Below are positions 14,516 through 55,562 of a stretch of DNA of 64,000 nt, piece after piece (position 1 is the stretch's first letter; each line of letters begins with the position of its first letter). The stretch is from Deltaproteobacteria bacterium. GTDB taxonomy: Bacteria > Desulfobacterota > Desulfarculia > Desulfarculales > Desulfarculaceae. The notes under the pieces are model-generated. The model was given only the letters and a program-made list of their open reading frames with translations. It did not search any database and was not told the DNA's origin. The stretch is taken from contig JAHLLK010000027.1 in the NCBI GenBank assembly GCA_020444165.1, positions 1-64,000 of the forward strand, given 5' to 3'. Both the position numbers and the translations under genes were made by a program.

Positions 14516-15867
14516 GCGCCAATATCCTGATCGTGGACGACGAGCCCTCCATCCGCCGCTCCCTGGAGGGCATCCTGGCCGACGAGGGCTATGCCTGCCG
14601 CGCCGCGCCCTCGGGCGAGGCGGCCCTGGAGGCGGTGGAGGACGAGGAGCCGGATCTGCTCCTCCTGGACGTGTGGCTGCCGGGCATGGACGGGCTCACC
14701 GTGCTGGAGCGCCTGAAGGCGGCCCGGCCCCATCTGCCGGTGGTGATGATCTCGGGCCACGGCACGGTGGAGACCGCGGTGAAGGCCACCCGCCTGGGGG
14801 CCTTTGACTTCATCGAAAAGCCCCTGGACATGGACAAGATCCTCTTGTCCATCCGGAACGGCCTGGAGCTGGGCCGGCTGTCCCAGGAGCTTTCGCTGCT
14901 CAAAGCCAAGGCCGCCCCGCCCACCCTCATCGGCCAAAGCCCGGCCATGGACCAGGTGCGCCGGGCCATCGCCATGGTGGCTCCCACGGATTCCTGGGTG
15001 CTCATCACCGGCGAAAACGGCACCGGCAAGGAGCTGGTGGCCCAGGCCATCCACCGCCAGAGCAAGCGGGCCCGGGGGCCCTTCGTGGACGTGAACTGCG
15101 CGGCCATCCCCGAGGAGCTGATCGAGAGCGAGCTGTTCGGCCACGAGAAAGGCGCCTTCACCGGGGCCACCGGCAGCAAGCGGGGCAAGTTCGACCTGGC
15201 CCACAAGGGCACCATCCTGCTGGACGAGATCGGGGACATGAGCCTGAAGACCCAGGCCAAGATCCTCCGCATCCTCCAGGAGCGGCGCTTCGAGCGGGTG
15301 GGCGGCACCCGCACCATCGCGGTGGACGTGCGGGTCCTGGCCGCCACCAACAAGGACCTCACCGCCGAGATCGCGGCCGGGCGCTTCCGCGAGGACCTGT
15401 ACTACCGCCTCAACGTGATCCCCATCGAGGTGCCGCCCCTCCGCGAGCGGACCGAGGACATCCCGCTGTTGGCCGAGCAGTTTCTGGGCGAGCAGTGCCG
15501 CCGGGCCCACACCCCCAAGAAGGCCTTCTCACCCGCCGCCCTGGAGCTGTTGAAACGCCAGGCCTGGCCCGGCAACGTGCGGGAGCTGAAGAACCTGGTG
15601 GAACGCCTGGTGATCCTCTCGCCGGGCGCGGAAATCGGCCCCGAGAACCTGCCCGGCGCCGCGCGGGCCGAGGCCCAGGCGGGCGGGTCCCTGCCCCCGG
15701 AGCTGTTGGTGGACGACTTCAAGGAGGCCCGCCAGGCCTTCGAGCGCCATTACCTGGACCACAAACTCAAGGAAAACGAGGGCAACATCAGCCAGACCGC
15801 CGAGGTCATCGGCCTGGAGCGCAGCCACCTGCACAAGAAGTTGAAAAGCCTGGGTATCCGCGACTGA
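14512..15867 (+). CDS. NtrX-like sigma-54-dependent response regulator
   Basis: A 451-residue cytoplasmic regulator. Residues 1-120 are a receiver domain ([10 protein letters not shown], phospho-acceptor Asp in [13 protein letters not shown], and FDFIEKPLD). Residues about 140-370 form an AAA+ sigma-54 activation domain with Walker A GENGTGKE, the sigma-54 contact loop GAFTGA, Walker B ILLDEIGD, and the arginine-rich sensor region. The C-terminus is a Fis-type helix-turn-helix ([19 protein letters not shown]). It pairs with the kinase just upstream. It should activate sigma-54 promoters when phosphorylated; no target in this window is evident. Confidence 0.9.
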
Positions 15868-15885: not shown

Positions 15886-17274
15886 ATGGACTTCATGCAC
15901 ATAGCCGCGGTGGTGCTGGTCCTCGCCGCGGCCTTCTCCTTCCTGGCCCAGCTGGCCCCCCGGGTGCCCTTGAAGATCGGCATCCTGCTCCTCTCCCTGG
16001 CCGCCTTCCTGGTCCTGTTGGGCCTGGACCGCTGGACCGGGGCGGATCTGGCCGGCTGGGCCTCCCGCCTGGCCTCCTCGGTGGACTTCAGCCAAGTGGT
16101 GCTGGAGGGGTTCCTGGGCTTCCTCCTCTTTGCCGGGGCCCTGGAAGTGGAGCTGGCGGACCTGTGGGATCACCGCCGCGAGGTGAGCATCCTGGCCACC
16201 CTGGGGGTTTTGGTTTCCACCTTCCTGGTGGGCGGCGCGGTGTACGCCCTGGCCCGGGCTCTGGGGCTGGGCCTGGACCTGGTGCACGCCCTGCTGTTCG
16301 GCGCCCTCATCTCCCCCACCGACCCCATCGCGGTCATGGCTCTGTTCCGCTCCCTGGGCGCCCCCCGGGCCCTGCAGACCAAGGTCACCGGCGAGTCCCT
16401 GTTCAACGACGGCATCGGCGTGGTGGTCTTCCTGGTCATCCTGGGCCTTCTCACCCGGCCCGCGGAAGTCACCGTCTCTTCGGTGCTGCTGCTCCTGGTG
16501 GTGGAGGTGCTGGGCGGCGTCGCATTCGGCCTGGCCGCCGGCCTGCTGGCCTACCTCATGCTGCGGCGGGTGGACAACTACCCCGTGGAGGTGCTCATCA
16601 CCCTGGCCCTGGTGGTGGGCGGCTACGTGCTGGCCGGCGACCTGCACGTGTCCGCGCCCATCGCCATGGTGGTGGCCGGGCTGTTCATCGGCAACCGGGG
16701 CCGCCGCCTGGCCATGAGCGAGAACACCCGCCTGCACCTGGATCATTTCTGGGAGATGGTGGACGACCTCCTGAACGTGGTGCTGTTCGTGCTCATCGGC
16801 CTGGAGGTCTTGGTCATCGCCTTTGACCACCAGCGCCTGTGGGCCGGGGCCCTGGCCGTACCCCTGGTGCTCTTGGCCCGCTGGCTCAGCGTGCGCCTGT
16901 CCCTGGGGCTGTTGGGCCAAGGGCGGGCCAACGGCCCGGCCGTGGTGCGGGTCCTCATCTGGGGCGGGCTGCGGGGCGGCATCTCGGTGGCCCTGGCCCT
17001 TTCCCTGCCGGCCGACGCCTCCCGGGAGCTGATCCTCACCATGACCTACGTGGTGGTGGTGTTCTCCATCGGGGCGCAGGGCCTCACCCTGCCGCTCCTC
17101 TTGCCCGCGGCCCGCCGGGAGCTGGGCACCGGCCCGGCACCGCCGGAGCCCATGCCCGGGGAAGCCTCCGCCTCGGCCAACGCCGAAGGCTCCGCCCTCG
17201 AACCCCACCCGGCCCCCGACCCCGCCCCCCACCCAGCCCCTGACCGGGCTTCCGCCCCGGAACCCCGGCCGTGA
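15886..17274 (+). CDS. CPA1-type cation/proton antiporter (NhaP-like)
   Basis: A 462-residue inner-membrane antiporter with about twelve hydrophobic segments. Core ion-binding motifs are SPTDPIAVMALF and GESLFNDGIGVVVF, both typical of CPA1/NhaP Na+/H+ or K+/H+ exchangers, and GGLRGGISVALALSLP appears near the last helices. The last 50 residues are a Pro/Ala/Glu tail with PAPDPAPHPAPD, probably disordered. It starts 19 bases after ntrX and ends overlapping the EamA gene as GTGA, so it is likely in the same transcript. It serves pH or ion homeostasis; the ion is not determinable. Confidence 0.88.
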   Translation: MDFMHIAAVVLVLAAAFSFLAQLAPRVPLKIGILLLSLAAFLVLLGLDRWTGADLAGWASRLASSVDFSQVVLEGFLGFLLFAGALEVELADLWDHRREVSILATLGVLVSTFLVGGAVYALARALGLGLDLVHALLFGALISPTDPIAVMALFRSLGAPRALQTKVTGESLFNDGIGVVVFLVILGLLTRPAEVTVSSVLLLLVVEVLGGVAFGLAAGLLAYLMLRRVDNYPVEVLITLALVVGGYVLAGDLHVSAPIAMVVAGLFIGNRGRRLAMSENTRLHLDHFWEMVDDLLNVVLFVLIGLEVLVIAFDHQRLWAGALAVPLVLLARWLSVRLSLGLLGQGRANGPAVVRVLIWGGLRGGISVALALSLPADASRELILTMTYVVVVFSIGAQGLTLPLLLPAARRELGTGPAPPEPMPGEASASANAEGSALEPHPAPDPAPHPAPDRASAPEPRP

Positions 17275-30856: not shown

Positions 30857-32071
30857 ATGGCACTGGTTCCCCCCCATGGTGGAGGCGATCTTAAGCCGCT
30901 GTTGTTGGAAGGTGATGCTCTTAAGGCCGAGATCAAAGCCGCCGAGGGCTACAAGAAGCTCAACGTGACCTCCCGTGAAGCCTGCGACTGCTTCATGCTG
31001 GGCATCGGCGCTTTCACCCCCCTGCCGGGTTTCATGGGCAAGGCCGACTGGCAGGGCGTCTGTGACAAGATGCAGCTGACCACCGGCGTGTTCTGGCCGA
31101 TTCCGATCACCTGCAGCGCCGACGACTCCGACGGCATCGAGGTGGGCGACAAGGTCGCTCTGTACAATGACGAGTACGGAGGACTCATCGCTACCCTGGC
31201 CGTGACCGAGAAATACGAGATCGACAAGGCTCACGAGTGCCGCAAGGTCTTCACCACCGATGACATGGAACACCCCGGTGTCCAGAAGGTCATGGCCCAG
31301 AAGAAATACAATCTGGCCGGCACGGTGAAGGTGGTGAGCGAGGGCGGCTTCCCCGAGGAGTACGGCGACCTGTACGCCCGTCCCGTCGAGACCCGGAAGC
31401 TGTTCGAGGAGCTGGGCTGGTCCCGCGTGGCCGCTTTCCAGACCCGCAACCCCATGCACCGCAGCCACGAGTACCTGGCCAAGATCGCGGTCGAGGTTAT
31501 GGACGGCGTGATCATTCACCAGATCCTGGGCAAGCTGAAGGCCGGCGACATTCCCGCCGACGTCCGCGTCCAGGCCATCAACGCCCTGGTGGACAACTAC
31601 TTCGTGAAGGGCACCGTGGTTTCCAAGGGCTACCCCATGGAAATGCGTTACGCCGGTCCCCGTGAGGCCCTGCTGCACGCCGTGTTCCGTCAAAACTTCG
31701 GCTGCTCCCACCTGATCGTGGGCCGCGACCACGCCGGCGTGGGCGACTACTACGGCCCCTTCGACGCCCAGAAGATCTTCTACGAGTTGCCCGCGGGCAG
31801 CCTGGTCCTGGAGCCCCTGCCGATCGACTGGACCTTCTACTGCCGCAAGTGCGAGGGCATGGCCTCCATGAAGACCTGCCCCCACGGCAAGGAAGACCGC
31901 ATGCTCCTGTCCGGCACCATGGTCCGCAAGACCCTCTCCGAGGGTGGCGACCTGCCCCGGGAGTTCTCCCGTCCCGAGATCGTCAAGATCCTGCAGCACT
32001 ACTACCAGAACCTGGACGAAAAGGTGGAGATCAAGCTCCACGGCGCCGCCACTGGCGACGTGAAAAAGTAA
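30857..32071 (+). CDS. sat: Sulfate adenylyltransferase (dissimilatory ATP sulfurylase)
   Basis: A 404-residue cytoplasmic enzyme that activates sulfate to APS with ATP, the first step of dissimilatory sulfate reduction. Active-site motifs [12 protein letters not shown] (QxRNPxHxxH) and [11 protein letters not shown] are intact. A zinc-binding [13 protein letters not shown] motif is typical of the homo-oligomeric form from sulfate reducers. Strong SD (AAGGAGGAAGG). Codon choice (many CGT, GGC, AAG and few rare codons) suggests high expression. It is monocistronic, with a leader promoter upstream and a perfect terminator downstream. Confidence 0.97.
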
Positions 32072-35388: not shown

Positions 35389-35883
35389 ATGAGTTCTTCC
35401 CAGCATGCCTTGGCCGAGGCGGAGGTGTTGGACCCCGCGGTGCTGGACCGCATCATCATGCAGGATTTCCAAGGCGATAAATCCAACCTGGTGATGATCC
35501 TGCAAGCCATTCAAGCCGCGTTCGGCTATCTGCCCCAAGAGGCCCTGCGCCACACCGCGTCCCAACTGGCCATCCCCCTCAGCCACGTCTACTCGGTGGG
35601 AACCTTCTACTCCACCTTCAGCTTCGAGCCCAAGGGCCGCCACGTCGTCACCGTGTGCATGGGCACCGCCTGCCACGTGCGCGGCGCCGGCCGCATCCTG
35701 GACAGCCTCTCCAAAAGCCTGGCCGTGGCCCCGGGCGGCACCACGGGTGACCAGCGCTTCACCCTGGAGACGGTCCGTTGCGTGGGTTGCTGCTCCCTGG
35801 GCCCGGTGGTCCGGGTGGACAACGACACTCACGGCCGGGTGGATCAGGACGACCTGGCGTCGATCATGGACCACTACGAGTAG
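35389..35883 (+). CDS. NuoE-like [2Fe-2S] thioredoxin-fold subunit
   Basis: A 164-residue subunit of a NADH-dehydrogenase-type complex (24-kDa/HndA/HydC family). Residues 20-80 form a helical domain, then a thioredoxin-like ferredoxin with ligands in VCMGTACHVRGA and RCVGCCSLGP. ATG after AAGGAGG. It is followed by the NuoF-like gene after 30 bases. The three-gene unit (35389-38704) has the make-up of the diaphorase part of soluble hydrogenases, formate dehydrogenases or electron-bifurcating enzymes; no catalytic partner lies nearby on this strand. Confidence 0.9.
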   Translation: MSSSQHALAEAEVLDPAVLDRIIMQDFQGDKSNLVMILQAIQAAFGYLPQEALRHTASQLAIPLSHVYSVGTFYSTFSFEPKGRHVVTVCMGTACHVRGAGRILDSLSKSLAVAPGGTTGDQRFTLETVRCVGCCSLGPVVRVDNDTHGRVDQDDLASIMDHYE

Positions 35884-35913
35884 GCCGGACCTGCCGGGAA
35901 AGGCGAGGATTGC

Positions 35914-37833
35914 ATGGCATCGCGCATCGAATCTCTGGAACAGCTGACCGCCATCAAGGACCGGGTCGTGGAGGAGATCTCCCGGCCGGGCCTTTTGACC
36001 CTGAACATCGGCCTGGCCTCCTGCGGCATCGCGGCCGGGGCCCAAGCCACCGCCGATCTGGTGCAACAGGAAATGGACCCGGCTGAAGTGCTGCTCCGCC
36101 GCACCGGCTGCCTGGGCGACTGCGAGGCCGAGCCCCTGGTGGAGATCCTGGGCCCCGACCCGGACGCCCCCCGCATCCTGTACAAGCACGTCACCCCGGA
36201 CAAGGTCCTGGACCTGGTGGCCGCCCACCGCCAGGGCGACTTCCCCGGCAAGCTGGCCCTGGGCTGGATGGCCGACGCCTGGTCGTTGTTGGCCCAGAAC
36301 TACGGCGAACTGCCCGCCCCGGCCCAGCAGTGGGGCCTGCCCCATCTCTCCCAGACCCCCTTCTACGCCAAGCAGTTCAAGGTCGCCCTGCGGAACTGCG
36401 GCTACATCGACCCGGAGAACCTGGAGCACTACATCTCCCGGGGCGGTTACCAGGCCCTGTGGAAGGCCCTCAGGGAGATGGCGCCCGGCGACATCATCGA
36501 GACCATGCTGGAGTCGGGCCTCCGGGGCCGCGGCGGGGCCGGCTTCCCCACCGGCATGAAGTGGAAGTTCATGGCCGCCAGCCCCGGCGACCAGAAATAC
36601 GTCATCGTCAACGCCGATGAAGGCGACCCCGGGGCCTACATGGACCGCTCCGTGCTGGAAGGCGACCCCCACAGCGTGCTGGAGGGCCTGGCCATCGCCG
36701 CCCGGGCCACCGGGGCCAACCAGGGCTACATCTACGCCCGCCACGAATACCCCCTGGCGGTCAAGCGCCTCAAGATCGCCATCGCCCAGGCCCGCGAACA
36801 CGGCCTCTTGGGCCGGAACATCCTGGGCAGCGGCTTCGACTTCGACGTCACCATCTCCACCGGCGCCGGCGCCTTTGTCTGCGGCGAGGAAACCGCGCTC
36901 ATGGCCTCCATCATGGGTGAGCCCGGCCGCCCCCGCCCCCGCCCGCCCTTCCCGGCCCAGTCCGGCCTTTGGGGCAAGCCCTCCAACATCAACAACGTGG
37001 AGACCATGGCCAACGTGCCGGCCATCCTCTTCAAGGGCGGCGGCTGGTACAAAAAGATCGGCGCGGGCCACGAAGGCGGCTCTTCCGGCACCAAGGTCTT
37101 TTCCCTGGTGGGCAAGATCAAGAACACCGGCCTGGTGGAGGTGCCCATCGGCATCTCGCTCCGGGAGATCGTCTTCGACATCGGCGGCGGGGTGCCCAAG
37201 AAGAAGAACTTCAAGGCCGTGCAGACCGGCGGCCCCTCGGGCGGCTGCATCACCAACGAGCACCTCGACACCCCGGTGGACTACCACACCCTGGGCCAGC
37301 TCGGCTCCATCATGGGCTCCGGCGGCATGATCGTCATGGACCAGAGCACCTGCATGGTGGACCTGGCCCGCTACTTCATCGAGTTCCTCATCGAGGAATC
37401 CTGCGGCAAATGCGTGCCCTGCCGCGAAGGCCTGCAACTCCTGCACGAAATCCTGGTCCGCATCTCCCGCGGCGAAGGCCTGGAGGAGGACATGGCGCGC
37501 CTGGAAGAGCTGGCCCTGGCCATGAAGGACTTCTCCCTCTGCGGCCTGGGCCAGACCGCGCCCAACCCTGTCCTCTCCACCCTGCAATACTTCCGCGAGG
37601 AATACCTGGCCCATATCCGGGACAAGCACTGCCCCGCCGGGGTCTGCGAGGCCCTGTACCACTACCGCATTTCCCCCGAGAAATGCACGGGCTGCCACCT
37701 CTGCGCCCTGAAATGCCCCCAAGCCTGCATCACCGGCGAGAAACGCAAGCCCCACGAGCTGAACCCCGAACTCTGCGTGAAGTGCGGACTTTGCTATAAC
37801 TCCTGTAAGTTCGACGCCATCGAGATCGTATGA
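35914..37833 (+). CDS. NuoF-like NADH-binding Fe-S flavoprotein (HydB/HndC type)
   Basis: A 639-residue protein in three parts. Residues 1-125 are a thioredoxin-like [2Fe-2S] domain (ASCGIAAGA, RTGCLGDCEAEPL). Residues about 150-560 are the 51-kDa NuoF core: NADH/FMN site GLRGRGGAGFPTGMKW, NADEGDPGAYMDR, GAGAFVCGEETAL, and the [4Fe-4S] ligands CGKCVPCREG plus a later LCGLG. Residues 580-639 carry two ferredoxin clusters (CTGCHLCALKC and CVKCGLCYNSC). This composition (NuoF plus N- and C-terminal extensions) is shared with HydB of electron-bifurcating hydrogenases and HndC. It binds NAD(P) and passes electrons; the pathway is not defined. Confidence 0.93.
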   Translation: MASRIESLEQLTAIKDRVVEEISRPGLLTLNIGLASCGIAAGAQATADLVQQEMDPAEVLLRRTGCLGDCEAEPLVEILGPDPDAPRILYKHVTPDKVLDLVAAHRQGDFPGKLALGWMADAWSLLAQNYGELPAPAQQWGLPHLSQTPFYAKQFKVALRNCGYIDPENLEHYISRGGYQALWKALREMAPGDIIETMLESGLRGRGGAGFPTGMKWKFMAASPGDQKYVIVNADEGDPGAYMDRSVLEGDPHSVLEGLAIAARATGANQGYIYARHEYPLAVKRLKIAIAQAREHGLLGRNILGSGFDFDVTISTGAGAFVCGEETALMASIMGEPGRPRPRPPFPAQSGLWGKPSNINNVETMANVPAILFKGGGWYKKIGAGHEGGSSGTKVFSLVGKIKNTGLVEVPIGISLREIVFDIGGGVPKKKNFKAVQTGGPSGGCITNEHLDTPVDYHTLGQLGSIMGSGGMIVMDQSTCMVDLARYFIEFLIEESCGKCVPCREGLQLLHEILVRISRGEGLEEDMARLEELALAMKDFSLCGLGQTAPNPVLSTLQYFREEYLAHIRDKHCPAGVCEALYHYRISPEKCTGCHLCALKCPQACITGEKRKPHELNPELCVKCGLCYNSCKFDAIEIV

Positions 37834-37891
37834 CGCCCAGGCCCGCCCCCACCCCCGGCTGGCCCGCCGGGAGGGGCCGGAAAGGATCAGC

Positions 37892-38704
37892 ATGCTCACC
37901 CTGACCATTGACGGAAAAGAGGTCACCGCAGAACCCGGAGCCCTGCTCCTGGACGTGTGCCGCGCTCACGGCTGCGAGGTGCCGGCCCTGTGCCACCACC
38001 CCGCCCTGCCCGCCCACGGCGCCTGCCGCCTGTGCACCGTGGAAATCACCGAGGGCGGCCGCTCCCGCCTGGGCGCCTCCTGCTGCACCATCGTCTCCCA
38101 GGACATGGCCGTGATCACCGACTCCCCCCGGGTCAAACGCGGCCGCAAGGTCGTGGCCGAACTCCTCCTGCGCCGCTGCCCCGAAAACCAAACCGTGCGT
38201 AACTTGGCCGCCCGCCTCGGCGTGGACGTCGACGCGGTCACGGGCTCCCTCACCCCCACCGATGACAACAAGGACCACAACTGCGTGCTCTGCGCCCGCT
38301 GCACCCGCGCCTGCGCCCAAGTCGGCGCCTTCGCCATCGCCATGGTGGACCGCGGCCCCCAAATGCACGTGGGCACCCCCTTCAACGCCCTGTCCGAGGC
38401 CTGCATCGGCTGCGGCTCCTGCGCCGAAATCTGCCCCACCGGCGCCATCTGCCTCGACGACCACGACGGCCTGCGCAAAGTGGTCCGCGGCGACGGCGTA
38501 ACCTCCGAACAACCCCTGGTCCGCTGCTCCCGCTGCCACCAATACTTCGCCACCCAAAAAATGCTCGACCACCTGGCCGCCAAACAACCCCTCGGACCCG
38601 ATGTCCCCTACCAACCCGAACTCTGCCCCGCCTGTAACCGCCTCGCCTGGTCCGAAAAACTCTCCGGCTGGCCGGAAGAGCTGCGGAAGCAGGAAGAGGG
38701 GTAA
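37892..38704 (+). CDS. HoxU/NuoG-N-type Fe-S subunit
   Basis: A 270-residue electron carrier. A [2Fe-2S] ferredoxin (CHHPALPAHGACRLC) comes first, then a His/Cys-ligated [4Fe-4S] (DHNCVLCARCTRAC), then two classical motifs (CIGCGSCAEICP and a partner). The C-terminus adds two CxxC pairs (CSRCHQYF and CPACNRL) that could bind zinc or another cluster. There is no H-cluster domain, so it is not an Fe-Fe hydrogenase large subunit. It is 58 bases after the NuoF-like gene. It likely links the diaphorase to a catalytic subunit encoded elsewhere. Hairpin H4 ends the operon. Confidence 0.9.
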   Translation: MLTLTIDGKEVTAEPGALLLDVCRAHGCEVPALCHHPALPAHGACRLCTVEITEGGRSRLGASCCTIVSQDMAVITDSPRVKRGRKVVAELLLRRCPENQTVRNLAARLGVDVDAVTGSLTPTDDNKDHNCVLCARCTRACAQVGAFAIAMVDRGPQMHVGTPFNALSEACIGCGSCAEICPTGAICLDDHDGLRKVVRGDGVTSEQPLVRCSRCHQYFATQKMLDHLAAKQPLGPDVPYQPELCPACNRLAWSEKLSGWPEELRKQEEG

Positions 38705-39407: not shown

Positions 39408-39932
39408 TCAGGCCACGTCGCCGGGCCGCATCCAGGGGTTGGCCACCATCTGGGCGAAGCGCTCCCGCCGGTCGTCCTTCACTTCCGTGGCCAGGCCGAA
39501 GTCCAGGCATCCGGTGAGGCACTTGGTCACGCAGGCCGGTTTGAGGCCCTTGTCCACCCGGTCCTTGCAGTAGTCGCACTTGACTGCCTTGCCCGCTGCG
39601 GGGTTCCACTGGCAGGCGCCCCAGGGGCAGGCGGTGATGCAGCTCTTGCACCCGATGCACAGGTTCTGGTCGATGTAGACGATGCCGTCCTCTGCCCGCT
39701 GCTTGATTGCCCCGGAGGGGCAGACGTTCTTGCAGGCCGGGACTTCGCAATGGAAGCAGGGCATGAACACGAAGCGGAGCCGGGGCAGCCCGTCCAGGGC
39801 CACCGGCCCCACGGCCAGGTTCTGGCAGAGGCGCGGCCCCGGGGCCAGGCCCTTGTTGGTCTTGCAGTGCACCTCGCAGGCCAGGCAACCGATGCAGCTC
39901 TGGGCGTCTTGCCGCAGGTAGTATTTACTCAT
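39408..39932 (-). CDS. Four-cluster ferredoxin subunit (PsrB/DmsB type)
   Basis: A 174-residue electron-transfer subunit with four [4Fe-4S] motifs: SCIGCLACEVHC, CFHCEVPACKNVCP, CIGCKSCITACP and CDYCKDRV...CVTKCLTGC. No signal peptide. It lies 73 bases downstream of the molybdoenzyme gene on the same strand and should relay electrons to or from its cofactor. No membrane anchor subunit (NrfD/PsrC type) accompanies them, so the pair probably stays soluble. Confidence 0.92.
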   Translation of the reverse strand: MSKYYLRQDAQSCIGCLACEVHCKTNKGLAPGPRLCQNLAVGPVALDGLPRLRFVFMPCFHCEVPACKNVCPSGAIKQRAEDGIVYIDQNLCIGCKSCITACPWGACQWNPAAGKAVKCDYCKDRVDKGLKPACVTKCLTGCLDFGLATEVKDDRRERFAQMVANPWMRPGDVA

Positions 39933-40005
39933 GGGTTATGCTTCCCTTTCTGGTCCGGGACTGGGGAGCGGGGCGTGAGCCAACCGCCCGTCAGTCCCCC
40001 GGGCC

Positions 40006-42138
40006 TCAGGCCGGGTTCACCGTGACGATGCACTCGCAAAGGGTGGCGCCGCCGCCGGCCGGATCGTATTCGCCCAACAGGCCCTTTTGCAGCCGCTGAT
40101 CGGCCACTCCGTTGTTGAAGGCCCGGGTCTGCCAGGGGACGGTGCGGCCGAAGCCGTGCAGCAGGAACACCGCGTCCGGGTGGATCCACATGGTCACCCG
40201 CACGGGGGCCGTGGCCTCGTAACCCTGGCGGGCGATCTTCACCTGATCCCCGTCCTTCAGCCCCAGGGCCTTGGCCCGGTCCGGGTGCATCCACAGGGGG
40301 TTGTCGTGCAACAGCTCGAACAACAGCGGGTTGTTGGCGGTGTGGGCGTGGTTGTGCACCGCGGCCCGGCCGAACAACAGCCGGAACTCGTGGCCGGTGA
40401 GGGGGGCCGGGGCCTCCACCGGAGCCAGGTCCGGCAGCCCGGCCTCGGCCAAGACGGCCGAGGTGAACTCGATCTTGCCCGAGGGGGTCTTGAACTTGAG
40501 GCCTTCCAGCCGGTCGAACAACAGGGGCTTGTCGGCCAGGGACAAGACCCCCTTGCCCCGGATGTCGTCGATGGCGATGCCGGTGCCATCCAACTGCCGC
40601 GCCCATACGTCCTCGATGGTCTCGTAGTCAAAGAACTCACCCTTGCCCAGGCGGCGGGCCAGTTCCTTGAAGATCCACCAGGAAGGCCGGCTGTCGAAGC
40701 GCGGGGCCAGCACCTGGTCGCGCATGTGGAGGCTGGGCTTGGCCCCGTTCTTTTGGGCCAGCAGGGTGGCCCGCTCCAGATAGGTGGCCTCGGGCAGGAT
40801 CACGTCCGCGAACCAGGCCGTCTCCGAGTAGTTGACGTCGATGGACACGATGAGGTCCAGCTTGTCCAGGATGGCCTTCTGGGCGTCCGGGTCGGGCAGG
40901 CTGGAGAGGACGTCGTGGCGGTAGGCGATGTAGGCCCCCACCTGGTAGGGGTCGCCGCTCTCGATGGCCGGGTACAGCATATTGATGAGACCGGGGCCGC
41001 CGTCCCAGTGGCGGTATTTCCAGCCGCAGCCGTCCACCCGCTGGTCCGCCACCTTGGGCATCTTGGCCCCCAGGGAGTTGAGGCCCTTCCGGCCCACGTC
41101 GCCCGGCTTCTTGGCCAGGATCAGCCCGCCCGGGGTCTCGATGGCCCCCAGGAGCACGTTCAGCATGTGGGCGGTGCGGGCGGTGTAGAAGGAGTTCTTG
41201 TAGCGGGCGGTCATCCACCCGGCGTGGAACATCACCGCCGGGGCGTCGGCGGCTATTTCACGGGCAAAGGCCGCCACCTCGGCGGCGGGGATGCCGGTGA
41301 TGGCTTCCTGCCAGGCGGGGGTCTGGTCCTTCACGAAATCCCGCACGGCGTCCAGGCCGCTCACCCAGCGCTCCACGAACGCCTTGTCGTAGAGTCCCTC
41401 GGCCAGCACCACGTGGATCAGGGCCAGGTTCAGGGCATAGTCCGTGCCCGGCCGGATCTGCCAGTACCGGGTGGCCTTGGTGGCGGTCAGGGAGGCGCGG
41501 GGGTCGATGTAGGTGCACTTGGCCCCGGCCTTCAGGGCCCCCATGAACTCCTTGGCCTCTTTCACCTGCAAGGCCTCGATGAGGTTGCGGCCGTAGAGCA
41601 CGATGTGCTTGGTGTTCTTGATGTCGTAGCCCAGGCCGGTGCGGCCCAGGCCGAAAAGGCTCATGGTGGCGTGGTGGGTGTTGCGGCCGCAGGTGGCGTC
41701 GTGGTTGAAGTAGTTGGGCGAGCCCAGGGCCTTCAGGAAGCTCTTGGTCAGGTCGTTGAAGGGCCCGCCCCGGTCCGAGAGGGCCACGCCCTTGGCGCCG
41801 TACTTGGCGATCACCTGGGCCAGGCCGTCGGCCACGTAGTCCAGGGCCTCGTCCCAGGAGGCCGGCCGCCACTCGCCTCCGCCGCGGGCTCCCGTGCGGA
41901 TCAGGGGGTGTTGGGGGCGTTCCGGATCGGTCTCCAGGGCCACGCCGGCCGCACCCTTGGCGCACAGGCTGGCGCCCAGGGCCTTGTCATGGGGGTTGCC
42001 CGAGAGCCAGGTGACCTTGCCGTCCTCCACCTCCACCTGGATGGGGCAGCGCACCGCGCACATGCCGCACATGCTGTAGACCGTGCGCGGTCCCGGCTGG
42101 TCCACTCCCGCCACGTTGGGTGCTTCAGTGCTTTTCAT
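40006..42138 (-). CDS. Molybdopterin oxidoreductase, thiosulfate/polysulfide reductase-like
   Basis: A 710-residue Mo-bisMGD enzyme of the DMSO-reductase family. An N-terminal [4Fe-4S] site is formed by CGMCAVRC and a later LCAKG. The region DATCGRNTHHATM supplies the probable Mo-ligand Cys, typical of Phs/Psr enzymes, and the C-terminal domain (GDQVKIARQGYEA) is the molydop-binding fold. There is no Tat signal, unlike most Phs/Psr catalytic subunits, so it is likely cytoplasmic. The partner Fe-S subunit follows. The substrate may be a sulfur compound (thiosulfate, polysulfide) but arsenate, tetrathionate or another oxo-transfer substrate is possible. Needs the guanylyl cofactor made by MobA. 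Confidence 0.88.
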   Translation of the reverse strand: MKSTEAPNVAGVDQPGPRTVYSMCGMCAVRCPIQVEVEDGKVTWLSGNPHDKALGASLCAKGAAGVALETDPERPQHPLIRTGARGGGEWRPASWDEALDYVADGLAQVIAKYGAKGVALSDRGGPFNDLTKSFLKALGSPNYFNHDATCGRNTHHATMSLFGLGRTGLGYDIKNTKHIVLYGRNLIEALQVKEAKEFMGALKAGAKCTYIDPRASLTATKATRYWQIRPGTDYALNLALIHVVLAEGLYDKAFVERWVSGLDAVRDFVKDQTPAWQEAITGIPAAEVAAFAREIAADAPAVMFHAGWMTARYKNSFYTARTAHMLNVLLGAIETPGGLILAKKPGDVGRKGLNSLGAKMPKVADQRVDGCGWKYRHWDGGPGLINMLYPAIESGDPYQVGAYIAYRHDVLSSLPDPDAQKAILDKLDLIVSIDVNYSETAWFADVILPEATYLERATLLAQKNGAKPSLHMRDQVLAPRFDSRPSWWIFKELARRLGKGEFFDYETIEDVWARQLDGTGIAIDDIRGKGVLSLADKPLLFDRLEGLKFKTPSGKIEFTSAVLAEAGLPDLAPVEAPAPLTGHEFRLLFGRAAVHNHAHTANNPLLFELLHDNPLWMHPDRAKALGLKDGDQVKIARQGYEATAPVRVTMWIHPDAVFLLHGFGRTVPWQTRAFNNGVADQRLQKGLLGEYDPAGGGATLCECIVTVNPA

Positions 42139-42387
42139 ATATTGTGTCCCTTTTCCACGCCTGGACCGGCGGCGGATGGGCCGGCGGCCCTTGCCGCCGA
42201 TTCTCCGTCCCCCGCGGGGAGAGCCAGGCTGTTGAAGCGCAGCCTGGTGCGGGCTTGGGAAGACCTCGCGGTCCAAGCGCCATGATTTACTTGGAAAAAC
42301 GGCAAGCGGCGCGATGGGCCGGGCAAACTTTCGGCCGAAGGGATCGGCAAAACGCCGGCCCCGCGGCCAAGCTCGCACCTGGTTTCA

Positions 42388-45823: not shown

Positions 45824-47077
45824 TTAGAAGCCCACCGCCAGTTGGGTGGTGATCAGGTCGCGTTCGTCGTCGTTGTCGTATTCGCCGTGCAGGTATTCCA
45901 GGCTGAGGGTGGTGTCGGTCAGGAAGGCCCAAGACACGGTGGCGCCGTACTGGCGTTCGGGCATGAGGGTGCCCAGGTCGCTGCCGCCCTCATAGCGGCA
46001 GGCGAAGGTCCAGTCCTCCCAGGGCAGGAAGGCCACCTCGAAGTTCCAGGCTTCGGGCCGGGCGGCGCGGCCCTCGATGAAGTACAGCTCACCGGCCTGG
46101 AAGTCGTCCAGGGCGGCGAGGTATTCCGCGGTCATGGCCACCCAGTGGTAGCGGCCGTCCACCATCACCGACCAGCCGCCCACCAGCTCGTGGATCCGCT
46201 CGCCGGGCACCTCTTCGCTCAGGTTGCCGCCGGCGATGTTGTTGGTGTAGGCCACGCCGGCGTTCACGTCCACCGCCTCGCCCAAGGCGCCTTCCGGCGC
46301 GTCGAACTGCAGGCGGGTGTACCAGGTGTTGATCATGTAGTCGGGGTCGTCGCTGTTTTCGTGCACCGCGGCGTTGTACCCGCCCACGCCCACGTTGAAC
46401 CAGTCCTGGGCCCAGCCCACCTGGGCGGCGGTGGCCTGGGTTTCGAACACCTCCTGGGTGATGGGGTCGCTGACCATGTAGGTCTGGAACAAGCCGATGG
46501 AGGGGTACATGCGGCCGGCCAGGAGGTAATAGGGCACGTCCGGGGTCTGGCCGAGCAGGATGAAGCCCTCGTCCACGTTGAGGGGATCGGTTTCGCCCTG
46601 CTCATACAACAGATGGATGAGGCCCCGGGTCCATTCGTTGATATTGGCCTCGAAGAAGATCTCGGCCGTGGACAGGGTGATGTCGCTGGTGTTGGTGTCC
46701 TGGCCGGTCTTGGGCCGGTAGCGCTGGTAGCTGGCTTCCACCTCCACCGCGCCGTAGACGTTGATGCGCTTGGCCGCCTCGGACAACAGCCCCTCGGGCT
46801 GGGCCTTCACGGTCTTGGAAAGCTCCTGGGAAACCTTCAGCGAGTTGGCGCTGGTCTGGCGGGCCTCTTGGGCCGCCTTGTTGGCTTCATCGCTGGCGCA
46901 CTGCGCGTCGACGAGCTTTTTCTCCAGGTCGGCCACCCGGGTCTTCAGGGCCTGGACTTCCTTTATGAGCGCTTCCACCTGGGGGTCCAGGGCCCAGGCG
47001 GGACCGGGCAGAGCGATGAGCCCGGCAAAAAAGATGACCCCGACCAGCCACAGGGTCAAAGGTAGCTGTTTTTTCAC
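45824..47077 (-). CDS. LbtU-type outer-membrane porin
   Basis: A 417-residue beta-barrel protein. A signal peptide (LTLWLVGVIFFAGLIALPGPAWA) is followed by a coiled coil (about residues 28-85, EALIKEVQALKTRVADLEKK) and a barrel of alternating strands that ends in Phe (TTQLAVGF), the outer-membrane assembly signal. The pattern matches the LbtU siderophore-porin family. A GTG start at 47077 follows AAGGAGG. A cobalamin riboswitch and tandem terminators precede it, so it may take up cobalamin, cobinamide or cobalt rather than a siderophore (inference). It is the only gene in its transcript. Confidence 0.85.
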   Translation of the reverse strand: MKKQLPLTLWLVGVIFFAGLIALPGPAWALDPQVEALIKEVQALKTRVADLEKKLVDAQCASDEANKAAQEARQTSANSLKVSQELSKTVKAQPEGLLSEAAKRINVYGAVEVEASYQRYRPKTGQDTNTSDITLSTAEIFFEANINEWTRGLIHLLYEQGETDPLNVDEGFILLGQTPDVPYYLLAGRMYPSIGLFQTYMVSDPITQEVFETQATAAQVGWAQDWFNVGVGGYNAAVHENSDDPDYMINTWYTRLQFDAPEGALGEAVDVNAGVAYTNNIAGGNLSEEVPGERIHELVGGWSVMVDGRYHWVAMTAEYLAALDDFQAGELYFIEGRAARPEAWNFEVAFLPWEDWTFACRYEGGSDLGTLMPERQYGATVSWAFLTDTTLSLEYLHGEYDNDDERDLITTQLAVGF

Positions 47078-47108
47078 GTTGATCCTCCTTGGGGGGCAAA
47101 GCCCCGGA

Positions 47109-47176
47109 CAAAAAAAACCGGCCCCGCACTGGACCGGGATCCGGCAAAAAAACCCGGGCCCTGCCGGACCCGGGTT
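47109..47176 (-). terminator. Two tandem intrinsic terminators in the porin leader
   Basis: On the minus strand, a hairpin AACCCGGGTCC/GGGCCCGGGTT with T7 (47146-47176) is followed directly by CCGGTCC/GGGGCCGG with T8 (47109-47137). Both lie between the riboswitch and the gene, so they are expected to be the expression platform, i.e. the OFF state when the ligand is bound. Confidence 0.75.
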
Positions 47177-47214
47177 GATACCCTTTTCCACAACAAACTA
47201 TGACCCGCGGGGTA

Positions 47215-51727: not shown

Positions 51728-53485
51728 TTACTTGCTGAAACCGTACACCGGGATGTTGCCCGCGTTGGCCGGCTGGCTGGAGGCCTGGGCGTCCACCTCC
51801 TTCAGGAATTGCATGCTGGGCGTGGCGTCGGCCCAGCTGTTGGGCACGATGGTCCAGGTGAGGTCGGCGGTCAGCTCGATCTGGCAGGAGTTGGTGTCCC
51901 CGGTGGCGAGGTTCTGGGCGTTCACCGTGAGCACGGTGCCGGTGTCCCCCCAGAAGGGAGCCAGGTTGGTGAAGTTGTAGGAGTTGGCCTGCACGAAGCT
52001 CTGGCCCGGCTCGTCGATGGTCACCAGGATGTTGTCCGTGCTGCTGGCGTCCGCGCCCCGCACCATGGTCAGGTAGTAGTAGTCCTGGGTGGGGAAGTAG
52101 TCGGTGTCCCACTTGGCCATGCTGAACTCGATGGCCCCCTGGCCGTCGGGGGTGGAGCCCTGGGTGCCGTCCTGCCACTTGGTCAGGGAGGGGAAGGACT
52201 GGAAGGTGGGCAGCCCTCCGCCGGGGGTATTGTAGATGCCGTCCAGGTCCAGGTAGAAGTTCTTTTGCAGGTTGTAGCGGGCGTCGGCCGCGGTCCAGGT
52301 GCTGGCGTCGAAGTAGAACACGTCGGGGTTGCTGGGGTCGGTGATGAAGTCCGCCGCGGTGAAGGTGGTGTTCTGGGCGGAGGCGGCGTCCTTGAAGGGG
52401 TACTGGGCCATGGAGCGGACAAAGGTGCGGGCCCGCTCGAAGTCCGCGCCCAGGGTGCCGCCCCAGCCGTCAAAGGGGTAGACGTTCACGATCATCAAGA
52501 GATTGTTCAGCTTTTTTTCCATCCCGTTGCAGTACCAGGTCTCCTCGCCGCCGGGCGCGTCCAGGCTGCTCTCGAAGAGGGAGGGGTAGTCGTCCTTGGT
52601 GAAGGTGCGCACCGGGGCGAGACCGTCCACTCCCGTGCCGTCCTCCGGCGCGTCGATGTAATAGTTCACCGCGTTGGGCCCCCACACCACGGTGTAGGTG
52701 TGCAGGCCGGTGGGGTCGTAGGCATAGTCGCCTTTGGCGTCCTTGGCCCAATAGAAGGCCTGGTTGGTGATGTTGGCCCCGGAGACCGCGGTGCTCACCG
52801 AGGGCACGAAATCGCTGGTGACGCCCCCGGCGGTCACGGCCTGTTGGCCCTGGGGCATGCGGAACAGGTTCAGGGCAACCGAGTTTTCCAGGTCATTCCG
52901 GCTGGGCTGGGCCAGGGAGGGAGGGAAGCCCCAGGTGGGGGAGCCGCCGTCGCCGGCCGCCCAGTAATCGCCGGCCTGGGTGTGGTTCACCAGGTCCTGC
53001 CAGGAGGTCACGTCGGGGTGATTGCCGTTCAGGCCGATGGCCTGGGCCACCAGGTCGTCGGTCCACTCGCCGGAGACCTGGCTGGCGTCGTTGTAGGCCT
53101 TGGAACGGTACATGTTGTAGGTCAGGTTGCCTTTGCTGTCCTGGACTCCCTCGATGAGTTCGCGGGAGGAGGACAGGGTCTGGGGCACGAATTCCCAGTC
53201 TATCTCGGTCCAGCGCCACAGCTCGGCCTGGTCGGGGTAATAGTCGGCCCCAGGCTGCTGGGACTGCATGAAGTAGCCCACCACCACCGGCTGGTTGTCA
53301 TAGTTGCCCCAGCCCTGGAACACGTACATGCCGTAATCGTAATTGCCCCGGGCATAGGCCTGGCTCATGGCGGTGTCCTGCAGGCCCAGGGCCCAGGCCG
53401 GAGCCGCGGTCACGAGGCCGGCCAAGCAGCCGGCCAGACAGCCGGCAAAGCAGAGCAGCCCAACAAAACCTCGGAATTTTCGCAT
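51728..53485 (-). CDS. Secreted glycoside hydrolase family 16-like protein
   Basis: A 585-residue exported protein. The signal peptide spans about residues 1-32 (cleavage after APAWA). The GH16 active-site motif is present as EIDWEF (E94, D96, E98) in RWTEIDWEFV, and a second typical piece, GLHTYTVVWGPNAVNYYID, lies further on. The C-terminal half (from about 340) has no recognised domain and may bind glycan. Such enzymes cleave beta-1,3/1,4-glucans or galactans. ATG after GGAGG. The 377-base gap upstream holds no gene; a TATATATGG near 53670 on the minus strand may be its -10. Confidence 0.85.
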   Translation of the reverse strand: MRKFRGFVGLLCFAGCLAGCLAGLVTAAPAWALGLQDTAMSQAYARGNYDYGMYVFQGWGNYDNQPVVVGYFMQSQQPGADYYPDQAELWRWTEIDWEFVPQTLSSSRELIEGVQDSKGNLTYNMYRSKAYNDASQVSGEWTDDLVAQAIGLNGNHPDVTSWQDLVNHTQAGDYWAAGDGGSPTWGFPPSLAQPSRNDLENSVALNLFRMPQGQQAVTAGGVTSDFVPSVSTAVSGANITNQAFYWAKDAKGDYAYDPTGLHTYTVVWGPNAVNYYIDAPEDGTGVDGLAPVRTFTKDDYPSLFESSLDAPGGEETWYCNGMEKKLNNLLMIVNVYPFDGWGGTLGADFERARTFVRSMAQYPFKDAASAQNTTFTAADFITDPSNPDVFYFDASTWTAADARYNLQKNFYLDLDGIYNTPGGGLPTFQSFPSLTKWQDGTQGSTPDGQGAIEFSMAKWDTDYFPTQDYYYLTMVRGADASSTDNILVTIDEPGQSFVQANSYNFTNLAPFWGDTGTVLTVNAQNLATGDTNSCQIELTADLTWTIVPNSWADATPSMQFLKEVDAQASSQPANAGNIPVYGFSK

Positions 53486-53862
53486 GTGATCCTCCGCGTG
53501 GTGGTGGACCGCCCTCCGGCGGCCCGGCCGGAGAACGGCGCTGAGCCGTGGCCGGGATGGCTTGGTCCCGGCGGGGGTGGAGAAGTCGGCGGCCCGCAAA
53601 GGGGACTGTCAGGCCGCGGGCGGCCCCTGGTGCGGACCGCGCCAGGAGGTTACGTGGAATCGCGACCATATATAGTCCTATCGGCAGGAGGCCTATTAAT
53701 CTTAACAACGACGCTAGTCTTTTTTCGTCAGGGCCGCTCATTGGCCTTTAGACTATTGATTAGGGATCATGCATCGAAAGTGGTGATGCGTCCGACGGCC
53801 GGCGCCCCGGCCACCGGGCGGCAGCCACCCACCGGCGGGGGAGCCCGCCAAGGAGAGGAAGC

Positions 53863-54276
53863 ATGCCGAGACCGTTCAAAAACGCGGGCGTCCTGGCCCT
53901 GGCCTTGGCTTTGGTGGCCGGGCTCTGGGCTCTGGCCCTGGCCCAGGAGGCGCCGCGCATGAGCCTGGACGAGTTGAAGAGCCTCTTGGAAAAAGGGCCG
54001 GTGAACGTGGTGGACGTGCGCCAGCCGGCGGACTGGGCCGCCAGCGACCAGATGATCAAGGGGGCGGTGCGCCAACTGCCCGGCGCGGTGGAGGAGTGGG
54101 CCGGCCAATACCCCAAGGACCAGACCCTGGTCCTCTATTGCGCCTGAACCCACGAGGCCACGTCCGCCCGGGTGGCGGAGGATCTCATGAAAATGGGGTA
54201 CACCAAGGTTTACGCCCTGAAGGGGGGCTGGAAGGCCTGGGCGAAGGCCGGGTATCCCACCCAGAGCAAGAAATAA
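53863..54276 (+). CDS. Periplasmic rhodanese-domain protein with a candidate selenocysteine (in-frame UGA)
   Basis: A 137-residue protein, if the internal TGA at 54145-54147 is read as selenocysteine. An N-terminal signal (VLALALALVAGLWALALA) precedes a rhodanese domain: SLDELKSLL, VNVVDVRQPADWA, and the active-site region LVLYCA-U-THEATSARVAEDL, then YALKGGWKAWAKAGYP. Related rhodaneses read YCACPxEA here, so UGA aligns with a Cys. A hairpin starts 15 bases after the UGA (see next entry). The downstream 42 codons keep full rhodanese similarity, which argues against a decayed pseudogene. SD AAGGAGAGG. Alternatively it is a nonsense mutation. Sec-containing rhodanese relatives are known in Desulfobacterota. 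Confidence 0.8.
54145..54182 (+). promoter_or_regulatory. Candidate bacterial SECIS element
   Basis: The UGA is followed 15 bases later by a perfect stem TCCGCC/GGCGGA (54163-54168 with 54174-54179) closing the 5-base loop CGGGT. The loop begins 21 bases after the UGA, and a G is within the first two loop bases, which fits the bacterial SECIS consensus (distance about 16-37 bases). Confidence 0.65.
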
Positions 54277-54314
54277 CTTCAGCGGTTTCGTGTTGGCGGC
54301 GGCCCGGGCGGGGA

Positions 54315-55562
54315 TCAGGCCCCGGCCGGGCCGTCGGCCAGATACCCCGCATCCCGGGCCACGCCCAGCCGCCAACCCAGGGCCCGGACCCGGGCGTAGA
54401 ACTCCTCCCGGGCTCCCGGGCCAGCGGTCCAGGGGCGAGACGGCCAACCCGCCGCGCGGAGGAGCCCACCCGGCAGCAGCACCCCGCCGGGCGGCAGGAA
54501 ATCCACCCCGGTCACCAACACCTTGGCCTGGTTGGCCTGGAAAAAGGCCCGCCGGGCCGCCTGATCCGCCCCGCGAAGGAGCCGGGGCCACCGTTCCCAC
54601 GCCGGCTGGCCCGGGCCGGGCAGGTACTGCCGGTTGGCGGCCACCACGGCCCGTTCCCGCCGGGCCCAAGCCAGGAGCCGGGCGGGACTGTCCGGGGGCA
54701 ACAGCGCCCCCGGCTCGGCCAGGAACACGGCGTCCTCCTCGTCCAAAGCGCGGCGGGCATAGGCCAAGCCGAGGTTCCAGGCTTCCGCCGGCCCAGGGGC
54801 CGGGGAGCCCGGCGCCAACTGGGTCACCCGGGGGCCCCGGGGCCCGGGCCGGGGGGCTTCGTCCGCCTCTCCCCCGCAAAGAACCAGCTCCAGGTCCGCT
54901 AGGGGCCAGCCGGCCATCTGGCTGAGCCAGAGCCAGGCGGCCACCCGCCCCGCGGGGGGCAGGAGCACCAGGAGGCGGGGGCCGGCCGCCAGATCCCGGG
55001 GCCGCGGCGGCGGGGGCAGGGCGCCCGGCGGCCGCAAGCCGTCCATGATCAGCGAGGTGTAGCAGACCGGGCCCAGGCGGAACTCCTCCCGGCAGTCCCG
55101 GCGGGCCGTGCGCCGCACCGGGCCGTGCTCCTCCTGCCAGGGCCGGGACACAAAATGGCCCCGGGAGTTGAAGAACTCCAGGGGCCGTACCCGAAAACCA
55201 GCCTCACGCAACAAACCGCCCAGGTCCGCGGCCCGGAACAGGGCCTGATGGCCGTCCCGGGGCGGGCTCACGTAGTCCAGATAGCGGCGGTCGGGCCGGC
55301 CGCCGTCGGGCACCGCGACCCGGAAGCGGCCGCCGGGGGCCAGGTGGGCCAGGACCAGGCGCGCGGCGTACCCCGCCTGCCAGGGCGGGAAATGCTCCAG
55401 CACGTGCTCGGCCAACACCGCGGCCAGGCCGCCGGCCGGGTACAGGGCGCGCCAGTCCCGGAGGGAAAGCAGGTTCAATTCCCCGATGTCGGTGGAGCGC
55501 CAGCCGGGCCAGGTTTCCCTGGCCGCGCCGACCATGAGCTTGGCGCCCGGGAGGTTGGCCAC
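54315..55562 (-). CDS. Methyltransferase-like / glycosyltransferase-like two-domain protein
   Basis: A 415-residue soluble protein. The first 170 residues look like a degraded class I methyltransferase (IGELNLLSL, EHVLEHFPP, HLAPGGRFRVAVPDGG, WQEEHGPVRR), resembling proteins with a SAM fold but without a clear glycine motif I. Residues about 195-415 resemble a GT2-type nucleotide-sugar fold (LLVLLPPAGRVAAWLWL, LVLCGGEADEA, AWNLGLAYARRALDEEDAVFLAEPG, with a possible ExD-like turn). GTG start after AAGGAG, excellent spacing. No partner genes adjacent except the downstream rhodanese on the other strand. Function unknown. Confidence 0.65.
   Translation of the reverse strand: MANLPGAKLMVGAARETWPGWRSTDIGELNLLSLRDWRALYPAGGLAAVLAEHVLEHFPPWQAGYAARLVLAHLAPGGRFRVAVPDGGRPDRRYLDYVSPPRDGHQALFRAADLGGLLREAGFRVRPLEFFNSRGHFVSRPWQEEHGPVRRTARRDCREEFRLGPVCYTSLIMDGLRPPGALPPPPRPRDLAAGPRLLVLLPPAGRVAAWLWLSQMAGWPLADLELVLCGGEADEAPRPGPRGPRVTQLAPGSPAPGPAEAWNLGLAYARRALDEEDAVFLAEPGALLPPDSPARLLAWARRERAVVAANRQYLPGPGQPAWERWPRLLRGADQAARRAFFQANQAKVLVTGVDFLPPGGVLLPGGLLRAAGWPSRPWTAGPGAREEFYARVRALGWRLGVARDAGYLADGPAGA

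Follow-up and report, generated by a model that had tools for sequence, protein, structure and literature searches.

The window, as we call the whole 64,000-nucleotide stretch of DNA analysed here, contains a reading frame that begins with ATG at 53863, passes through an in-frame UGA at 54145-54147 and ends with TAA at 54274-54276. If the UGA is read as selenocysteine (Sec), translation gives a 137-residue product with U95, referred to below as Sec95. The rhodanese domain of the read-through product is one continuous Pfam match (PF00581) to residues 34-128, spanning the UGA, with an E-value of 5e-17 and 62.7 bits against a cut-off of 22.2. The same product scores 164.2 bits (cut-off 115) with the profile NF041203, named rhodanese_LYCAU, 'rhodanese-related (seleno)protein', and it matches over the full length, residues 17-136 aligning with profile positions 7-126 of 126, including the eponymous LYCAU motif at residues 91-95, whose U codon is the UGA at 54145. 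No feature of the window product excludes it from membership of this family. The AAGGAG motif upstream of the ATG is presumably the ribosome-binding site, and the N-terminal hydrophobic stretch suggests that the product is probably exported (Table 1).

Table 1. Features of the rhodanese gene and of its surroundings in the window.
Feature	Position	Strand	Basis
Predicted selenoprotein gene, complete; probably secreted single-domain rhodanese, 137 residues, Sec95	53863..54276	+	PF00581, NF041203
Putative signal peptide, residues 1-28	53863..53946	+	Hydrophobic stretch ending ALAQ, judged by eye
AAGGAG, 7 nt 5' of ATG	53850..53855	+	Sequence
Active-site CxU, Cys93-Ala94-Sec95	54139..54147	+	Column conservation; strand-helix position in model
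In-frame UGA, predicted to be read as Sec95	54145..54147	+	Translation, homologue column
42 sense codons 3' of UGA, C-terminal part of rhodanese domain	54148..54273	+	Coding-like composition, protein constraint
Bacterial SECIS hairpin within coding sequence	Stem 54163-54168 with 54174-54179, loop 54169-54173	+	Conservation, covariation, review constraints
623-aa ORF, divergent from rhodanese gene	51728-53599	-	Pfam: none over cut-off, GH16 weak at E 0.0038
Cobalamin riboswitch RF00174	47250-47436	-	85.9 bits; sole window Rfam match at gathering score
ORF just downstream of cobalamin riboswitch	45824-47191	-	Best Pfam DUF3573, E 1.8e-05, under cut-off
Molybdoenzyme most like thiosulfate reductase PhsA, with DmsB-like iron-sulfur protein	39408-42378	-	PhsA 563 bits, cut-off 694
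Sulfate adenylyltransferase (Sat)	30857-32071		
Three genes resembling HoxE/NuoE, NuoF and the N-terminal part of HoxU/NuoG	35389-38704	+	

The initial annotation had described an in-frame UGA inside an otherwise intact rhodanese, followed by 42 codons of rhodanese before the TAA, and had predicted that automatic annotation would yield a truncated protein of 94 residues. The Pfam match runs straight across the UGA, the codon count is reproduced in the translation, and the protein record P0002 is the window's own product, ending at exactly 94 residues. All TGA codons on both strands of the window were scanned for coding-like flanks of at least 25 codons before and at least 20 codons after, thresholds that are blind to Sec codons near the end of a gene, and two sites passed, 15865 and 54145. 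The TGA at 15865 was rejected as a Sec codon, being an ordinary gene junction with a new gene that begins at 15886, and with these thresholds no selenoprotein besides that at 54145 was detected in the window.

No clear partner gene adjoining the rhodanese gene is seen in the window, and neither a sigma-70-like promoter nor a terminator was found in 53600-54400. Further away, the ORF below the cobalamin riboswitch probably encodes a B12-controlled protein of no clear family, and the three genes at 35389-38704 look like a diaphorase module belonging to a hydrogenase or a complex of that kind. The host of the window is placed near Thermodesulfobacteriota by its sulfate adenylyltransferase, for which the closest named matches, among the 120 listed, come from Thermodesulfobacteriota and Desulfarculaceae bacteria.

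Conservation of the UGA codon among relatives

A scan of genome contigs returned one relative, L001, from an uncultured-bacterium MAG, which is 48% identical and has a UGA at the same place. The sample searched with NF041203 comprised 395 genomes of the phylum to which that MAG belongs, a phylum that may or may not be that of the window. The profile scored over its cut-off in 60 of these genomes, at 83 loci, and matched none of 14 control genomes at an E-value of 1e-15. Only matches over the cut-off were taken in, and all 83 were kept in the comparison; the closest to the window gene is L010, with 61% identity over 108 columns.

The alignment of homologues across the UGA, which the initial annotation had proposed as a check, gives a clear pattern: the Sec95 column contains UGA at 72 of the 83 loci, a Cys codon at two and a Ser codon at nine, and the Cys93 column contains a Cys codon at 71, UGA at 11 and Ser at one. 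A protein search, with C substituted for U in the query, returned 23 matches. Eleven of the matching proteins (P0009-P0018 and P0020), seen as protein records only, end after YC plus one residue, at the same place. The statement that many relatives have YCAC, that is, Cys at the Sec position, is true of P0007 and P0019, but 'many' was an overstatement, given two Cys codons against 72 UGA codons among the loci. Four metagenome proteins have another residue at this position (Q in P0003, L in P0004, F in P0005 and W in P0008), and each may be either a real substitution or a mis-translated UGA, alternatives that are indistinguishable without DNA. The YCAU residues are absent from P0006, which its source names a rhodanese-related (seleno)protein.

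The stretch that follows the UGA behaves as coding sequence. In the 20 comparisons made with the 20 best-scoring UGA loci, the mean pN/pS was 0.42 after the UGA against 0.50 before it, at synonymous sites that are near saturation, and third codon positions after the UGA were the most variable in all 20. Extra stop codons lie within the aligned stretch of three loci, a TAA in L016 and in L069 and a TGA elsewhere in L079, so a few copies of the family may be broken.

A conserved and covarying SECIS hairpin

The hairpin at 54163-54179 (TCCGCC-CGGGT-GGCGGA) was found as the initial annotation had drawn it, with six perfect pairs closing the loop CGGGT and a start 15 nt after the UGA; the spacing from UGA to loop is 21 nt. 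Its proposed fit to bacterial SECIS geometry also holds: the legend to Fig. 2 of a 2026 review (PMC13188914) gives a loop of 3-9 nt with a G within its first two positions, an upper stem of 4-16 bp, a UGA-to-loop spacing of 16-37 nt and an MFE of at most -7.5, and the window hairpin has a 5-nt loop, a 6-bp stem, G at loop position 2, the 21-nt spacing and an MFE of -12.4 kcal/mol over 40 nt. This stability is nevertheless what shuffled sequence would give (z = 0.16; 110 of 200 dinucleotide shuffles of the 51-nt segment fold as well), and the 6-bp stem also forms when the window stretch is recoded synonymously, in about 11% of cases. The window hairpin was for these reasons dropped as stand-alone evidence, and its weight derives from its conservation in relatives, not from its own stability.

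That conservation is nearly complete, since a 5-bp stem with a 5-nt loop has all five pairs at the identical distance after the UGA in 71 of the 72 UGA loci. When the sequences were recoded synonymously in 1000 rounds, the hairpin was kept by 4.7 of the 72 on average and by 13 at most; with pooled codon usage the mean was 3.9 and the maximum 10 of 72 (300 rounds), and at 24 other offsets the same hairpin was present at three loci of 72 or fewer. Of the 11 loci that lack UGA in the column, one (L059, with Ser) has all five pairs and two (L069 and L071) have four. In an alignment of 73 rows, 99.7% of cells are paired, four of the five pairs show two-sided changes, and the second loop base is G in every row. 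The observed pairing and covariation values were reached in none of 500 shuffles, a control that ignores the relatedness of the sequences. Structures slid by 1-3 columns paired at most 63.3% of cells against the 99.7% observed and gave a covariation score of at most 0.134 against 0.291, although the slide of +2 likewise produced three pairs with two-sided changes. The apical stem of the window hairpin, CCGCC/GGCGG, is rare in the family, recurring at one other (L086) of the 72 UGA loci, most of which have GTGCC/GGCAC (42 of 72) or GCGCC/GGCGC. With 71 of 72 hairpins intact and two-sided changes in the stem, the comparative set is clean evidence for a SECIS element within a coding region.

Selenocysteine machinery in the family genomes

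The selA gene is present in 58 of the 60 family genomes (all but G273 and G389) and a tRNA-Sec with an E-value below 1e-10 in 54 of 60, both counted by eye, and at least one of the two is present in all 60. The E-value limit was adopted because the tRNA-Sec model passes its gathering score in five of the 14 control genomes as well as in 354 of the 395. As selA is common across the sample (355 of 395 genomes overall and 297 of 335 outside the family), its co-occurrence with the family is consistent with Sec insertion and discriminates little. A selB match over the cut-off was found in 14 of 14 chosen family genomes, including the eight that lack one of the two, selA or a strong tRNA-Sec; the match in G195 covers under half of the model. 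Within the window, no tRNA genes were found and selA, selB and selD were absent from the listed matches (NCBIfam on 10 ORFs, Pfam on 13 distinct ORFs).

Predicted structure and the active-site loop

The AlphaFold2 model, built with 52 aligned sequences, has a pLDDT of 94.4. The best PDB match found by Foldseek is 6mxv (E 2.6e-09), E. coli GlpE (1gmx) is matched with a TMq of 0.82, and the best structural matches listed are mostly rhodaneses. In the model, whose residue numbers are those of the protein minus 28, strand E61-64 precedes the CxU motif and helix H71-82 follows it. Cys93 directly follows the central strand; Sec95 comes two residues later and precedes the next helix.

Compared with 6mxv, the loop that contains these residues has about two extra residues by phmmer, and either C93 or the Sec position is placed opposite the 6mxv Cys, depending on a 2-residue gap, so sequence alignments leave it ambiguous which of the two stands for the usual catalytic Cys. 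Since 82 of the 83 loci have Cys or Sec at position 93, and position 95 is sometimes Ser, we favour Cys93 as the sulfur carrier, with Sec95 as a helper nucleophile.

Variation of the active-site residues

UGA codons occupy both active-site positions (UxU) at 11 of the 83 loci (L015, L020, L024, L035, L044, L053, L054, L056, L058, L065 and L086). The family tree was built with both Sec columns coded as Cys, so these columns do not drive it. Its 131 columns leave many forks unresolved with the bootstrap not settled, and on it the UxU form requires at least seven changes, four of which are forced by well-supported branches. The UxU forms are scattered, some having CxU sisters, as with L054 (UxU) and L029 (CxU), which pair with support of 100/92; their labels are nevertheless more clustered than shuffled labels (mean 10.5 changes, none of 500 as low). 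On the whole we incline to the reading that the first active-site residue of the family changes repeatedly between Cys and Sec, so that CxU enzymes stand beside double-Sec UxU enzymes. If this is true, nature provides a series, CxC, CxU, UxU and CxS, with which to ask what part Sec plays in sulfane-sulfur chemistry. The table of PMC13188914 gives NF041203 as CxU with a '1', which we take as the number of Sec residues, and a text search of that review returned no occurrence of 'UxU'. No double-Sec rhodanese of this family is named in the cited review passages, a literature search covering listed titles and the first lines of abstracts showed nothing on two-Sec or persulfide rhodaneses, and the UxU forms may be new.

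At eight loci (L059, L069, L072, L077, L079, L080, L084 and L085) the Sec UGA is replaced by TCA or TCC, both Ser codons. They belong to five genomes, of which G168, G193, G216 and G280 also hold an over-cut-off UGA copy and G356 does not. One supported group unites seven of the eight loci, which keep only between one and four of the five hairpin pairs, while L059 keeps five. L071 has Ser at the Sec column and a UGA one codon further on (YCCSU), with four of five hairpin pairs, and is a paralog with a possibly shifted Sec position.

Discussion

A bacterial SECIS hairpin is bound by SelB carrying Sec-tRNA(Sec), and the UGA that precedes it is thereby recoded. The proposal of the initial annotation that UGA 54145 specifies selenocysteine stands on the NF041203 match of 164.2 bits, the UGA column, the constraint on the stretch after it and the covarying hairpin, and we conclude that the codon is very probably read as Sec in this organism. 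The complete gene, the predicted rhodanese fold and the Sec machinery in relatives belong to the same computational picture.

What else might a UGA within this rhodanese be? As a true stop, it would mark either a recent nonsense pseudogene or a functional truncated protein, the 94-residue P0002 that standard gene calling yields, and the hairpin of the window taken alone is not unusual. Termination here would, however, leave the rhodanese domain short by about a third and without the helix that follows the active-site loop, and it does not account for a UGA in the same column at 72 of 83 loci, for a downstream stretch constrained as protein or for a hairpin that is both kept and covarying, all of which make a stop very unlikely. 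We give almost no credence to decoding as an ordinary residue, for example Trp, through a changed genetic code or a suppressor. The Trp of P0008 could reflect such a reading, or a database translation with another code, but TGA ends many coding-like ORFs of the window, the sole other TGA that passed the scan is an ordinary gene junction, and a plain change of code needs no conserved, covarying hairpin.

With Sec as the preferred reading of the codon, SelB and its Sec-tRNA(Sec), bound to the hairpin at 54163-54179, would direct ribosomes to insert Sec at UGA 54145, and the resulting protein, small and probably exported, would be a rhodanese whose active-site loop contains a Cys-x-Sec pair. In the periplasm this enzyme would most likely take up sulfane sulfur (persulfide, polysulfide or thiosulfate) and pass it on, or reduce such species. 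Cys93, directly after the central strand, would carry the sulfur, and Sec95, as the second and faster nucleophile, would act by way of a selenenyl-sulfide or selenopersulfide step. We rate this mechanism, conjectural in all of its chemistry, at about even chances. A different chemistry, equally compatible with Sec insertion and a rival to the proposed chemistry only, is that of a thiol/selenol oxidoreductase or peroxidase in which the CxU pair works on a rhodanese scaffold without sulfurtransferase activity. The longer loop, with either C93 or Sec opposite the 6mxv Cys, and the occurrence of UxU and CxC forms in the family would fit an oxidoreductase, as would the statement in a 2022 review (PMC9312934) that predicted selenoproteins are mostly homologous to thiol-based oxidoreductases. 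Against it are the mostly rhodanese character of the best structural matches listed and the sulfur-cycle genes in the window, Sat and the PhsA-like enzyme that scores under its model cut-off, neither of them adjacent to the rhodanese gene. We hold the oxidoreductase to be a real possibility, if not the one to be expected. No biochemical function of this Sec rhodanese that has been tested is given in the cited literature passages; the CxC/CxU/UxU/CxS series would allow such a test.

How does the window product compare with known rhodaneses? Its fold is like that of E. coli GlpE, and its match to the GlpE profile is weak, both GlpE and PspE scores lying far under the cut-offs (37.5 of 102 and 17 of 102, respectively). 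The active site of GlpE and PspE has a single catalytic Cys, in contrast to the CxU loop of the window product. Judged by its sequence, the window gene is a new, mis-annotated member of a selenoprotein family that is already listed; since NF041203 is present in databases and reviews, the finding is known in kind. The outcome corrects a mis-annotated gene and bears out the selenoprotein candidate that the initial annotation had singled out without tools; for the window itself, it is an ordinary one.

In PMC13188914, NF041203 appears as 'rhodanese-like domain-containing protein form 3', with the motif CxU and the example TKB26178.1, and form 3 is credited there to Zhang and Gladyshev 2005; PMC9312934 lists a 'COG0607 form 2', also CxU. 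The window product has the CxU motif in common with both and the accession in common with form 3, a likeness at the level of accession and motif. A Sec rhodanese-like domain is also named in a study of marine Deltaproteobacteria (PMC8318568), and a rhodanese-related selenoprotein appears under another COG in the 2005 Sargasso Sea study (PMC1088965). The other Sec rhodaneses of PMC13188914 are form 1 (UxxS), forms 2 and 4 (UxxG) and form 5, TsoB (UxxxxU, NF045694). They combine a rhodanese domain with Sec, as the window product does, but their motifs are unlike its CxU, and with the TsoB profile it scores 30.4 bits against a cut-off of 805.
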